A stretch of DNA of 64,000 bases. Origin: Myxococcales bacterium 68-20 (lineage in GTDB: Bacteria; Myxococcota_A; Polyangia; Polyangiales; Polyangiaceae). This document shows positions 7,451-11,164 of the stretch, piece by piece. The stretch covers positions 437,915 through 501,914 of the forward strand of contig MKVQ01000040.1 in NCBI GenBank assembly GCA_001899635.1, read 5' to 3'. A program made the translations under genes and the position numbers. Below the pieces are notes generated by a model that saw only the letters and a list, made by a program, of their open reading frames with translations, searched no databases and was not told the origin of the DNA. How positions within the stretch are numbered: position 1 is the first letter of the stretch; the number at the start of each line of letters is the position of its first letter.

Positions 7451-8134
7451 TCAGGCCCTCGGGCCAGGCCCGTTTCGGTCGAGGTGGCGTGCGAGCGCGG
7501 CCACCTCTCGCTCTTCGTCCTGTTCGAGCAGCTCGTCTTCGTGCTGGGGCTCCGGTTCGCTCGCCTCCACGTCGACACGCATGCGTGCGGCGCTCCTGCT
7601 CGCCGTCTCGACGATGCTGCGCGCGAGCGCGTGCGGATCGGCGGCGCCGAGCACGACGGTCTTCTCCTTCACGCCGTCACGGTAGACGATCTCGACGACG
7701 CTCCCGCTGCTCGGCACGTAGGCCCAGCTCCCATCGGCGCCGCGCCGGATGCCCCAGCCGCCGTACTTCGTCCAGTCATAGTCGACGACCCTGCACGAGA
7801 TCACGCTCTCGAGCGGGATGGTCGGACCCCAGAGGCCGTACTTCACGTGGATCGCGCGCTCGGTGACGACGAAGCGCAATACGCCGAACAGGATCGCGAG
7901 CAGGAAGAAGATGACGGCGAGCAGACCCATTCCGATGGTCCAGAACGGGACGATCGAACGCGGCATCGGCCGTGTCGAAGCGTCGTTGAAGAGCGGCACC
8001 GAGATCGCCTGAAAGAGGATGAAGAGCCCGGGGACGGCCAAAAGCAGCGCCATCTTCCGCGACACGCGCTTGTCGCGATGAAGGACCCTCGTCCCGTCGT
8101 GCATGTACTTCGCCTCGAATGCGTCGTTCTTCAT
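7451..8134 (-). CDS. Membrane protein with bacterial PH-like domain
   Basis: The 227-residue protein has a short N-terminal cytoplasmic segment, two membrane segments (about 27-47 and 63-86), then a beta-rich domain running from FVVTERAIHVKYG to about 175 that resembles the bacterial PH fold (bPH). It contains LWGPTIPLESVISC and GWGIRRGADGSWAY, which recur in such proteins. The C-terminal 40 residues are highly acidic (EPEPQHEDELLEQDEER). The ATG at 8134 is preferred; a GGAGG lies 12 nt upstream. Two further in-frame ATGs at 8170 and 8176 are possible, and earlier starts would read through the hexamer repeats. The function is unknown. Bacterial PH-like membrane proteins are often linked to envelope stress. 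Confidence 0.75.
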   Translation of the reverse strand: MKNDAFEAKYMHDGTRVLHRDKRVSRKMALLLAVPGLFILFQAISVPLFNDASTRPMPRSIVPFWTIGMGLLAVIFFLLAILFGVLRFVVTERAIHVKYGLWGPTIPLESVISCRVVDYDWTKYGGWGIRRGADGSWAYVPSSGSVVEIVYRDGVKEKTVVLGAADPHALARSIVETASRSAARMRVDVEASEPEPQHEDELLEQDEEREVAALARHLDRNGPGPRA

Positions 8135-8210
8135 TCCCAGGGCGATCCTCCGGTCGTCAGGTCGCTTCATCCTCATCAATAGATCCACGGCTGCCGTTGC
8201 AAAGGGGAAC

Positions 8211-8301
8211 GTAGACGTAGACGTTGACGTCGTGGTCGTGGTCGTGGTCGTGGACCTTGACGTGGACCTGAACGTGGACGTGGACCACCACTCGTTGACG
8301 A
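8211..8301. repeat. Left arm of inverted hexamer-repeat pair around the four-helix-bundle gene
   Basis: The arm is built from 6-nt units such as GTAGAC, GTTGAC, GTCGTG and GACGTG. A 23-nt core (8247-8269) is exactly complementary to part of the right arm, and further blocks match outward and inward, with one gap of about 18 nt where GTCGTG units are repeated here only. The inner end, cgttgacga (8293-8301), touches the stop codon of the gene and matches the inner end of the right arm. Confidence 0.75.
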
Positions 8302-8637
8302 CTAGATCATCTTGCTCAGCATCCCGACGACGCCTTCGAGGAGCCGAATTCCCGTTTCGTAGCGTTCCTCCGCTACGAGCTTCCTGAGCTTCATCACGTC
8401 GAGCGAAGCGGCGCATTCCATGGCTTCGCCCCGGGCGATCTTGTAGTGCTTCGCGCTGTCGGCTCCCGACCACCGACCGGCTCCTTCCGCAATGTTTCGC
8501 ACGACGGATTCCGCCGCTCGGACGAGCTGGTCCGCTCGCTCGGCGTGGCCTTTCGGAAGATCGCCGGTGATGTCACCGACGAGGGCGAGAAACTCGATGG
8601 CACGGCGGTACACATCGAGTCGCTGGAAACTGAGCAT
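8302..8637 (-). CDS. Four-helix-bundle protein (23S rRNA intervening-sequence/S23 family)
   Basis: The 111-residue, all-helical protein starts MLSFQRLDVYRRAIEF and contains SVVRNIAEGAGRWS and KIARGEAMECAASLDV, the signature segments of the family encoded in 23S rRNA intervening sequences and related to the Avd accessory protein of diversity-generating retroelements. The ATG at 8637 is chosen because GAAGGGG lies just upstream and homology starts there. An ATG at 8676 and a TTG at 8685 are possible, the latter inside the right arm. No reverse transcriptase or rRNA gene is nearby. The gene sits exactly between inverted arms of about 80 bp. The biochemical role of free-standing members is not known; RNA or nucleic-acid binding is assumed. 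Confidence 0.88.
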   Translation of the reverse strand: MLSFQRLDVYRRAIEFLALVGDITGDLPKGHAERADQLVRAAESVVRNIAEGAGRWSGADSAKHYKIARGEAMECAASLDVMKLRKLVAEERYETGIRLLEGVVGMLSKMI

Positions 8638-8678
8638 GCCGCCCCTTCGGCCAGCGTCTCCGATGGTTGCGGGCATAC

Positions 8679-8757
8679 TCGTCAACGCTGATCGTCCACG
8701 TCCACGTCGTCGTCCACGTCAAGGTCCACGACCACGTCAACGTCAACGTCAACGAAC
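8679..8757. repeat. Right arm of inverted hexamer-repeat pair
   Basis: Hexamer units GTCCAC, GTCGTC, GTCAAG and three GTCAAC copies make up this arm. Its reverse complement aligns with the left arm (8211-8301) over nearly its full length apart from one gap. Transcribed through, the two arms could form a long imperfect duplex enclosing the four-helix-bundle gene, as in 23S rRNA intervening sequences. Confidence 0.75.
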
Positions 8758-8834
8758 GACTCGGCCTATCCGATGAACCCGACCGGCGCGGCTGTGGCTT
8801 GAGCCGCGGGCGTCGATCGCTTAACAGATCGCTC

Positions 8835-9605
8835 GTGCCCTGGATTCGTGCCGTCCTTCGAGGTCAGAAGGTCCTTGCTCGTGTGAAGTCCGACGGCTCC
8901 TTCGACGCTCCGGGTGGGCGTGTCGAGATCCGCTACAAGCCGACCGATCCGCGTGCGTACCGCGCCGGCGAGCGGAACCTCGAGCGTATTCCCGGCGAGG
9001 AGCTCCTTCCGGACGACGCGGTCGTCGCCGGCGAGGAGGTCGCGAAGCCCGCGACCAACTCGACCAACTCGACCAACTCGACCAAGGCGAAGGAAGAGCG
9101 CTCGGCGGCGCGCAAAGCCGAGGCTGCCGCCAAGGCGCTCGCGCCGGGCGCCGTGCCGAAGGACGCGTGGACGGTCTACGCCGACGGCGCGTGCTCCGGG
9201 AATCCTGGCCCTGCGGGCCTCGGGATCGTCCTCGTCGCGCCCGACGGCAAGACGCGGGTCGAAGGCTACGAGTACCTCGGCAGTGCGACGAACAACGTCG
9301 CCGAGCTCACGGCGATCTTGCGCGCGGCCGAGATCGTCCCGCCGGGCGCGGCGTTCGTGCTCCACACCGACAGCCAGTATTCGATCGGTGTGCTCACGAA
9401 GGGCTGGAAGGCGAAGGCCAACCAGGAGCTGATCGCGAGCGTGAAGAGCGCGCTGGCGAGCCGCCACAACTACCGGCTCGTCTATGTGCCCGGCCATGCC
9501 GGGGTGGAGCTCAACGAGCGCGCCGACGAGCTCGCGCGCGAGGCCGTCTCGCGGCGCGCGTCCCGCCTCCCAGCCGCCCCACCCGTTCCGCAATCGGCGG
9601 GCTGA
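8835..9605 (+). CDS. rnhA: Ribonuclease HI with extra N-terminal domain
   Basis: The enzyme cleaves the RNA strand of RNA-DNA hybrids. From the GTG at 8835 the protein has 256 residues: an N-terminal domain of about 65 residues (MPWIRAVLRGQKVLARV...), an Ala/Lys-rich linker with an Asn-Ser-Thr repeat (75-83), then the RNase H fold (about 112-245). The catalytic carboxylates are D117 (YADGACSGNPGP), E157 (NNVAELTAI), D179 (TDSQYS) and D231 (NERADELA), with HAG in the His loop. Upstream in-frame starts fall in the repeat arm and are rejected. The linker is encoded by three 9-bp repeats (near 9057-9085) and may vary in length between strains. Confidence 0.88.
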   Translation: MPWIRAVLRGQKVLARVKSDGSFDAPGGRVEIRYKPTDPRAYRAGERNLERIPGEELLPDDAVVAGEEVAKPATNSTNSTNSTKAKEERSAARKAEAAAKALAPGAVPKDAWTVYADGACSGNPGPAGLGIVLVAPDGKTRVEGYEYLGSATNNVAELTAILRAAEIVPPGAAFVLHTDSQYSIGVLTKGWKAKANQELIASVKSALASRHNYRLVYVPGHAGVELNERADELAREAVSRRASRLPAAPPVPQSAG

Positions 9606-10321: not shown

Positions 10322-11164
10322 ATGGCGAGCATCTTCCGCAAGGGCCTCTTCGAGGGGCACGTCGCCGTCGTCACCGGCGGTGGAAGCGGCATTGGCCTCG
10401 CCACTGCGCGCTCGCTCGGCGAGCTCGGCGCGAAGGTCGCGATCTGCGGGCGCAACCCCGAGAAGCTCGCGGCGGCGGAGGCGACGCTCCGCGAGAGCGT
10501 TCCCGGCATCGAGCTCTTCTCGGCCTCGTGCGATATCCGCGAGGTCGAACAGGTCAACGCGTTCGTCGACGCCGTCGGCGAGAAGCTCGGACGCGCGACG
10601 ATTCTCGTGAACAACGCCGGCGGCCAGTTCCCCACGACCGCGGAGACGCTCTCTCCCCGCGGGTGGGAGGCCGTCGTGCGCAACAACCTCAACGGGACCT
10701 TCTTCGTCACGCAGGCAGTGGGGACGAAGCACATGATCCCGTCACGCCGCGGGCGCGTCGTGAACGTCATCGCGAACATCGCGCGTGGCTTTCCGGGCAT
10801 GGTCCACACGGGCGCCGCGCGCGCGGGGGTCGAGAACATGACTCGCACGCTCGCGGTCGAGTGGGCGCAGCACAACATCCAGCTCAACGCCGTCGCGCCG
10901 GGCGTCATCCGCACGACCGGCACCGATCAGTATCCGCCCGAGCTCGTGGAGATGAGCCGCCAGAAGACGCCGATGAAGCGTCTCGGCACCGCGGGCGAGG
11001 TCGCCGAGCTCATCGTCTATCTCGCGTCCGATGCCGCGTTCTTCGTCACCGGCGAGTGCTGGTACATCGACGGCGGCGCGCATCTTTGGGGCGACAACTG
11101 GATCATCCCCGACGTCGATCCGCCTCCGCCGCCGGCGATCGTCGCGGAGCTGGGAAGTAGATAG
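10322..11164 (+). CDS. SDR oxidoreductase lacking the YxxxK motif (enoyl/dienoyl-CoA reductase-like)
   Basis: This 280-residue Rossmann protein has the cofactor motif TGGGSGIG (18-25), an NAD(P)-type RNP after strand 2 (CGRNPEK), NNAG (97-100) and a C-terminal YIDGG. Where classical SDRs carry Tyr-x-x-x-Lys it has HTGAARAG, with H162 and A166 at the Tyr and Lys positions. That replacement is known from the peroxisomal trans-2-enoyl-CoA reductase and 2,4-dienoyl-CoA reductase branch, so an acyl-CoA substrate is more likely than a sugar. A proline-rich C-terminal tail follows. An AAAGGGG ribosome site precedes the ATG, and the gene lies 12 bp after the acetyltransferase, so they are probably co-transcribed. 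Confidence 0.85.
   Translation: MASIFRKGLFEGHVAVVTGGGSGIGLATARSLGELGAKVAICGRNPEKLAAAEATLRESVPGIELFSASCDIREVEQVNAFVDAVGEKLGRATILVNNAGGQFPTTAETLSPRGWEAVVRNNLNGTFFVTQAVGTKHMIPSRRGRVVNVIANIARGFPGMVHTGAARAGVENMTRTLAVEWAQHNIQLNAVAPGVIRTTGTDQYPPELVEMSRQKTPMKRLGTAGEVAELIVYLASDAAFFVTGECWYIDGGAHLWGDNWIIPDVDPPPPPAIVAELGSR

Follow-up and report, generated by a model that had tools for sequence, protein, structure and literature searches.

In the window, by which we mean the whole stretch of 64 kb that was analysed, a short gene of the PF05635 family (23S IVP/S23) lies on the minus strand between two arms of tandem 6-nt units. The gene and its arms form an element of about 540 bp, which is placed between two protein-coding neighbours. 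The following features were assigned:

7454-8176, minus strand: left neighbour, host gene for a hypothetical protein without a Pfam match
8205-8760, minus strand: the whole element as RNA, a long stem of paired arms with the gene in the loop
8207-8211, no strand: GAACG, candidate left repeat of a duplicated target site; weak, as it resembles an arm unit
8209-8301, minus strand: downstream (3') arm, for the most part reverse-complementary to the upstream one; ACGTAG/GTGGTC/GTGGAC units when read on the plus strand, with the end CGTTGACGA
8302-8637, minus strand: PF05635 four-helix-bundle gene, ATG at 8637, stop at 8302, 111 amino acids
8676-8754, minus strand: upstream (5') arm, GTTGAC/GTGGAC/GTGGTC units, G-richer in the sense of the gene (30 G, 16 C)
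8754-8758, no strand: GAACG, candidate right copy of the duplication; weak
8667-9605, plus strand: right neighbour, host open reading frame with an RNase H domain (residues 167-294; PF00075, 91.2 bits)

An earlier, sequence-only reading of this DNA had placed an S23/IVP-type gene between two arms of 6-nt units, and this was borne out. The gene matched PF05635 with 72.5 bits in the profile search of the genome and with 73.3 bits as a protein (cut-off 33.8), and TRF found period-6 arrays at 8209-8285 and 8693-8754. The AlphaFold model of the protein is a four-helix bundle (mean pLDDT 96.1), and its nearest solved structures in the fold comparison were XCC0516 (2gsc) and BT_0352 (2rld). A weaker match was obtained to Avd in the reverse transcriptase complex of a diversity-generating retroelement, with TM values of 0.78-0.82 for the 8ub7 chains and E values of 0.013 and above. 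The RNase H reading frame as listed has only a candidate start and overlaps the arm; within it, a perfect 9-nt tandem repeat (CGACCAACT, 9052-9085) encodes a Thr-Asn-Ser linker.

The best ungapped inverted arm pair in the window extends over 60 nt (8231-8290 with 8689-8748) with 83% complementarity. The inner ends of the arms (8293-8304 with 8676-8687) are 92% complementary over 12 nt; the left one adjoins the stop codon and the right one is located some 40 nt upstream of the ATG. When gaps were allowed, the alignment of the arms spanned about 83 columns and contained small gaps as well as several mismatched positions. The earlier description of the right arm as the reverse complement of the left apart from one expansion of GTCGTG units is therefore somewhat too tidy, the arms being about 83% complementary. 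Among 1,266 positions with the same arm spacing in the 64-kb window, the arm pair scored 40, the next independent place 15 and the median place 8; the pairing is beyond chance.

The RNA of 8205-8760 on the minus strand had a folding energy of -298.3 kcal/mol. In 100 shuffles the mean was -228 (sd 6.57) and none was as low, corresponding to a z of -10.7. This gave the long stem with the gene in its loop, and terminal inverted repeats are present at the element. Rfam at the gathering threshold found one tRNA and no rRNA in the 64-kb window, and no match at the element, in agreement with the proposal that the design of an rRNA intervening sequence (IVS) exists here outside rRNA; the same design recurs across phyla, as described below. 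The unit of the window is seldom dispersed, since one 19-nt pattern with up to 2 mismatches had 11 matches in the 11.9 Mb of the genome, 6 of them within the element.

Copies in the same genome and in the order

A profile search of the own genome gave 5 PF05635 matches, the window copy included. The other four have arrays of differing units on one side only and none of them passed the threshold for inverted arms, so that the full design of a gene with both paired arms is found in the window copy alone. Across the order, PF05635 matches occurred in 51 of 96 genomes with up to 31 per genome. For 8 of these genomes 97 matches were listed, and about 10-20 kb were fetched around 82 of them, yielding 69 elements including that of the window. 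Period-6 arrays covered 12% of the sequence at 0-250 bp and 16% at 250-500 bp from the 82 matches, and 0.2% or less in all bins past 1.5 kb.

The threshold for arms in the order was the 99th percentile of far controls (122 control pairs). Above it were inverted arms in 28 of the 69 elements and direct arms in 30. The 56 elements with a single gene divided into 22 with mainly inverted arms, 16 with mainly direct arms and 18 with neither, and the convergent gene pairs had direct arms in 11 of 13 cases and inverted arms in 1. A single hairpin spanning the gene in every element was therefore rejected. Of the 22 elements with one gene and inverted arms, 17, including that of the window, had a G-richer upstream arm.

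In genome G004 four pairs were inspected base by base, and each gene had its own upstream hairpin that enclosed the ribosome-binding site. In 6 of the 7 G004 pairs both arrays could be read and were direct; a contig end cuts the remaining pair. The direction of the arrays tracked the orientation of the element in all 7. A hairpin across the gene does not account for the direct arms of the pairs and of the 16 single-gene elements; in G004, the local hairpin at each gene could replace it.

Some loci of the order showed further repeats. In genus g22 a second dispersed repeat (CTGCGTCGACCGGTAACTCGG.. / ..CCGGTTGACGCAG) adjoins arrays, one of them gene-less (L107 at about 9210-9280, L108 at about 10540-10610, L134 left of the array). 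Five PF05635 matches stand in tandem on one strand in G057 (L100, 8643-11403) with arrays between them, and neighbouring flanks are strongly similar in direct orientation. Four single-gene loci (L069, L070, L081 and the second match of L103) are flanked by long direct repeats with local scores of 148-238 and not by inverted arms.

Recurrence across phyla and on plasmids

A search with the XCC0516 fragment found matches in 23 of 72,556 plasmids, mostly of Nostocales. Twelve of the 23 were fetched, chosen before arms were looked for, and 10 of these 12 loci had inverted arms above threshold and 1 had direct arms. Heptamers such as AGTAGGG/TCCCTAC and TCAGAAG/TTCTGAC were the units in these plasmids. 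At the Gemmatirosa plasmid locus, 8-nt arms (GAGGGCAG/CTCCTGCC) were recognised by eye, below the score threshold. For genomes, the best 80 of 578 relatives were taken, a choice biased to XCC0516-like proteins, and 79 were scorable (L262 was not). With 229 control pairs, inverted arms were above threshold in 49 of the 79 and direct arms in 13. The sequence-only reading had named arms absent around orthologous genes of relatives as evidence against it, and this was seen in part: among these best 80 of 578, the remaining 30 of 79 were below the inverted threshold, as were the four other copies of the own genome and 2 of the 12 plasmid loci.

By their record titles, the 49 armed loci among these best 80 span at least 12 phylum-level groups. 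These are Pseudomonadota, desulfobacterial groups, Bacteroidota, Planctomycetota, Acidobacteriota and Bacillota, and further Verrucomicrobiota with Kiritimatiellae, Hydrogenedentota, Kapaibacterium, Gemmatimonadota, Cloacimonadota, Uhrbacteria and a single Actinomycetota MAG. Many of the surveyed genome loci are MAGs and the loci partly share ancestry, for example in Xanthomonadales, so these counts are not independent events. The window protein is only 23-31% identical to 17 surveyed proteins from across the phyla.

The arm units were 6-8 nt long, differed between loci and matched within a locus. Over 91 loci the right arm fitted its own partner with a mean of 21.0 and the arms of other loci with 9.5, a difference not reached in any of 2,000 permutations, and the own arm was the single best partner in 38 of the 91. 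The end of the plasmid genes was approximate in the threshold test, which counted 59 of 91 loci as armed; recomputation with the in-frame ends gave 60, and in 58 of these 60 genome and plasmid loci the upstream arm had more G than C. The similarity of the arms grew with the identity of the proteins (rho 0.19). In L209 and L210 the XCC0516 relative stands between GGGAATC units, and L211 was below threshold.

In type I-D CRISPR operons of Anabaena sp. 90 and Pseudanabaena galeata, a PF05635 gene is located between cas6 and cas4 (L200 2986-3354 and L207 2989-3348). In Pseudanabaena ABRG5-3 (L300) cas6 and cas4 are adjacent, with no four-helix-bundle gene between them.

Filled and empty sites

The contact between arms, gene and host DNA was read at sites that are filled in one record and empty in another. 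Site 1 is a VirB10 operon, filled in Trichormus variabilis plasmid C and in Scytonema NIES-4073. The empty junction, AAAAAGTAATTAACAAATAAATATG, was read base by base in Nostoc linckia NIES-25 and Tolypothrix PCC 7712 at about 97.5% identity, and four more records show the same shorter span by listing, not base by base. In T. variabilis a 423-bp element is placed between two copies of GTAAT, which makes an exact junction with a 5-bp duplication. The plasmid pC052_E of Nostoc C052 has a decayed copy at this site with a gene remnant of 22.6 bits.

Site 2 is filled in pNsp_a of Nostoc ATCC 53789 by a 413-bp element between copies of TTCTA. The homologous operons L205 and L301 lack the element and read GGTTCTAGGTTATG, and the right flank of the filled site reads TTCTAGTTATG, with one G fewer; L298 has an empty junction similar to that of site 2. 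The elements of sites 1 and 2 are in different operons and have similar gene starts and an identical arm unit, as is expected if arms and gene travel together. The sites of L201, L202, L204, L205 and L207 gave less exact absences, and the filled and empty comparison showed no exact duplication at these five or at L109.

In the order of the window, the G004 element L112 comes after a stop codon, where G073, G075, G079 and G089 have few bases (flanks 68-76% identical to G004). The site is near-empty in the nearest relative G013 (85-88%), where a remnant of some 135 bp still has two or three units at either end. On both sides of the G004 copy stands TAGC, a repeat of four bases. A further element, L109, is absent from G013 (88-89% identity), whose near-empty site has a 14-bp spacer. 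Several insertions abut host stop codons in the sequence. The near-identical copies L206 and L293 differ in their unit counts.

By these comparisons of homologous sites, arms can arrive together with the gene, and arms and gene insert as one unit in some relatives, namely on Nostocales plasmids and in a genus of the window's order. An array as a pre-existing target was rejected as a general rule, since the junctions in G073, G075, G079, G089 and the plasmids are free of arrays. A hint toward arrays that come first is given by the solo arrays in G013, G073 and G075, genomes without a PF05635 match. The mobility that the sequence-only reading had considered was thus upheld for the class. For the window site itself no empty counterpart was found: homologues of the left neighbour occurred in 7 of 38 genomes, its own included, and the RNase H gene was beside them in none of the 9 other fetched loci (L188-L196), only in L187, which is the window.

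Arms without the gene

Arrays of the CAGYGN pattern, which had 931 matches in G004, also occur without the gene, even in members of the genus that have no PF05635 match. A 49.9-kb stretch of Nostoc pNsp_a contains 15 short-unit arrays, and several inverted pairs share the unit of the sole gene-bearing pair; the profile scan of this stretch found one PF05635 gene only. At L292 (pNsp_c of Nostoc ATCC 53789, about 960-1230), an allele of the L201 site, arms of the AGGGAAC type enclose a gene-less loop without a profile match, and Nostoc C052 bears the gene there. Such gene-less arm pairs look like MITE-like derivatives or decayed copies, and the dispersed heptamer arrays known as STRR probably represent the arms of such elements or what is left of them.

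Comparison with known systems

A 23S rRNA intervening sequence of Coxiella burnetii is described in the excerpted text of PMC4990558 as a selfish element of 428 nt with a gene in a stem of complementary ends. The window element resembles it in the protein family and in its complementary ends, which form a stem whose loop contains the gene, and the size reported there is close to the 423 and 413 bp of the plasmid cases, with about 540 bp in the window. It differs from the 23S insertions in that it lies outside rRNA between protein genes and has arms made of short tandem repeats, and in the target-site duplications that are seen in its relatives.

The arms also resemble dispersed repeats of bacteria. 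STRR hairpins in cyanobacteria are said in part of PMC2670836 to have an unknown function. Excerpts of PMC4692102 report GGGAATC repeats in Xanthomonas (186 of them in X. campestris) and, in Nostoc, repeats of GGGGA(C/T)T, and state that both are generally not found with mobile elements; in L209 and L210, however, GGGAATC stands on both sides of the XCC0516 relative. As far as the available text of PMC2670836, PMC4692102 and PMC4679880 describes these arrays of Nostoc, Xanthomonas and Beggiatoaceae, they share with the window short tandem units and, in part, hairpin-forming inverted pairs between genes. A passage of PMC2700814 describes paired hepta- and octanucleotide repeats of Geobacter metallireducens as binding sites of a global regulator, and these are likewise pairs of tandem arrays on opposite strands in many copies. 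Unlike the STRR in the excerpts at hand, whose descriptions name no four-helix-bundle gene, the repeats studied here are the arms of an inserted unit that bears a gene. The STRR unit is of about 7 bp, compared with 6 bp in the window and 7 bp in the cyanobacterial copies, and an STRR-like dispersal of one unit over the genome is absent in the window genome for the one pattern searched and present in others such as G004.

Type III toxin-antitoxin systems combine a repeat RNA with a protein, and the repeat RNA neutralises the toxin. Compared with them, and only as an analogy, the repeats here are on both flanks of the gene.

In the excerpts that a search of the open-licence PMC literature returned, no report joined PF05635 or S23 genes with tandem repeats outside rRNA, which is no proof of novelty. 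Within that literature, the widespread class to which the window element belongs was not found described.

Interpretation

We consider it likely that the window locus is a free-standing IVS-like mobile element whose own ends are the short-tandem-repeat arms. Its membership in the class rests on its anatomy, that is the gene family, the paired arms, their polarity and the weak GAACG repeat, and the window copy is probably a resident member. Movement was observed through the site comparisons in relatives, and we infer it for the window copy. Our confidence was slightly reduced by the recount of the direct arms and by the one-base difference at site 2.

MITEs are small, have inverted ends, make duplications and carry no enzyme. 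The element resembles them in its size, its inverted ends and the lack of an enzyme, and the duplications are seen in relatives, with GAACG as the weak candidate in the window. In a MITE-like, non-autonomous DNA transposon, the arms would be terminal inverted repeats used in trans by a DDE transposase and the gene would be a passenger. The 5-bp duplications and terminal arms in relatives fit with this, as do the gene-less inverted arm pairs of the same unit near a gene-bearing copy and the decayed (L290) and gene-less (L292) alleles at polymorphic sites. However, the ends of the element have no fixed sequence and the arm units change from one locus to the next, also among the copies of a single genome; a transposase that recognises a given sequence should be unable to work on such variable ends. 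The gene inside is conserved across phyla and the polarity of the arms is kept relative to it, so we regard a passenger gene in an ordinary transposon as rather unlikely. Movement through an RNA that a reverse transcriptase copies is suggested by the likeness to Avd, the accessory protein of diversity-generating retroelements (4dwl, 8ub7), which has a similar fold with a TM of about 0.8; a passage of PMC10053308 calls PF05635 and Avd homologous. Unlike in such retroelements, no reverse transcriptase is near the window element, and the two matches in its genome are on contigs C5 and C30, with the element on C40. Against this reading, the presence of PF00078 did not track PF05635 in 96 genomes (34 with both, 17 with PF05635 only, 25 with the reverse transcriptase only, 20 with neither; Fisher p 0.30), and 11 of the 31 genomes with at least 5 copies had no match to the enzyme, many of the assemblies being drafts. 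Because of these drafts, copying by reverse transcription is retained as an alternative that we hold to be unlikely.

The protein could also bind its own repeat arms in the mRNA and control the host operon, the arms being born by slippage and kept for regulation. Some copies are inside operons, such as those between cas6 and cas4 and those in conjugation operons, the ribosome-binding site of each gene was within a hairpin in the four G004 elements inspected, and regulatory roles have been proposed for similar repeats in the available parts of PMC4679880 and PMC2700814. The presence and absence between close relatives together with the target-site duplications, however, means that the unit arrives as a whole. 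Such a regulatory role and the mobile IVS-like element are compatible with each other, and we hold a regulatory cassette of this kind to be unlikely. Short repeats do expand by slippage, as the unit counts of L206 and L293 illustrate, and the arms are weak, one-sided or direct at many loci. Chance slippage beside an ordinary gene is nevertheless hard to keep for the class in view of the inserted units; matched arms, polarity and co-insertion all speak against it, and we find it very improbable.

For the free-standing mobile element, neither a transposase nor a reverse transcriptase was found inside, and movement therefore needs a partner enzyme. The sequence of the units varies freely, but their pairing and polarity are for the most part preserved, which suggests that the hairpin is recognised and not the sequence. 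The Avd-like protein may bind the arm hairpin as RNA or single-stranded DNA and would then help an enzyme supplied in trans to insert the hairpin element. Gene-less arm pairs with a matching unit would be copies that, like MITEs, have decayed or are non-autonomous.

As a tentative extension, to which we give somewhat less than an even chance, these loci would represent a class of tiny mobile elements across phyla whose ends are set by structure and not by sequence. Any short repeat unit would serve if the arms pair and the 5' arm is rich in G, the Avd-like protein would recognise the hairpin and guide insertion, and the STRR arrays of cyanobacteria, Xanthomonas, Beggiatoa and Geobacter would be arms, gene-less derivatives and scars. 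This would join two puzzles. One is the orphan protein family that was first met in insertions of 23S rRNA, the other the short tandem repeats dispersed in bacterial genomes, for which the papers cited above call the function unknown or only propose one. The co-insertion of arms and gene may account for the origin of the puzzling short-repeat arrays. If the repeats are arms of a PF05635 element, cyanobacteria kept in the laboratory allow tests of their spread, hairpin form and unit turnover, and any genome can be searched for the element with the arms as markers.

A separate observation was made at L302 (22379-22643), where inverted heptamer arms surround a gene for a hypothetical protein of 66 amino acids (WP_147262451.1) that has no match to the PF05635 profile. 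Arms like these may carry other cargo.
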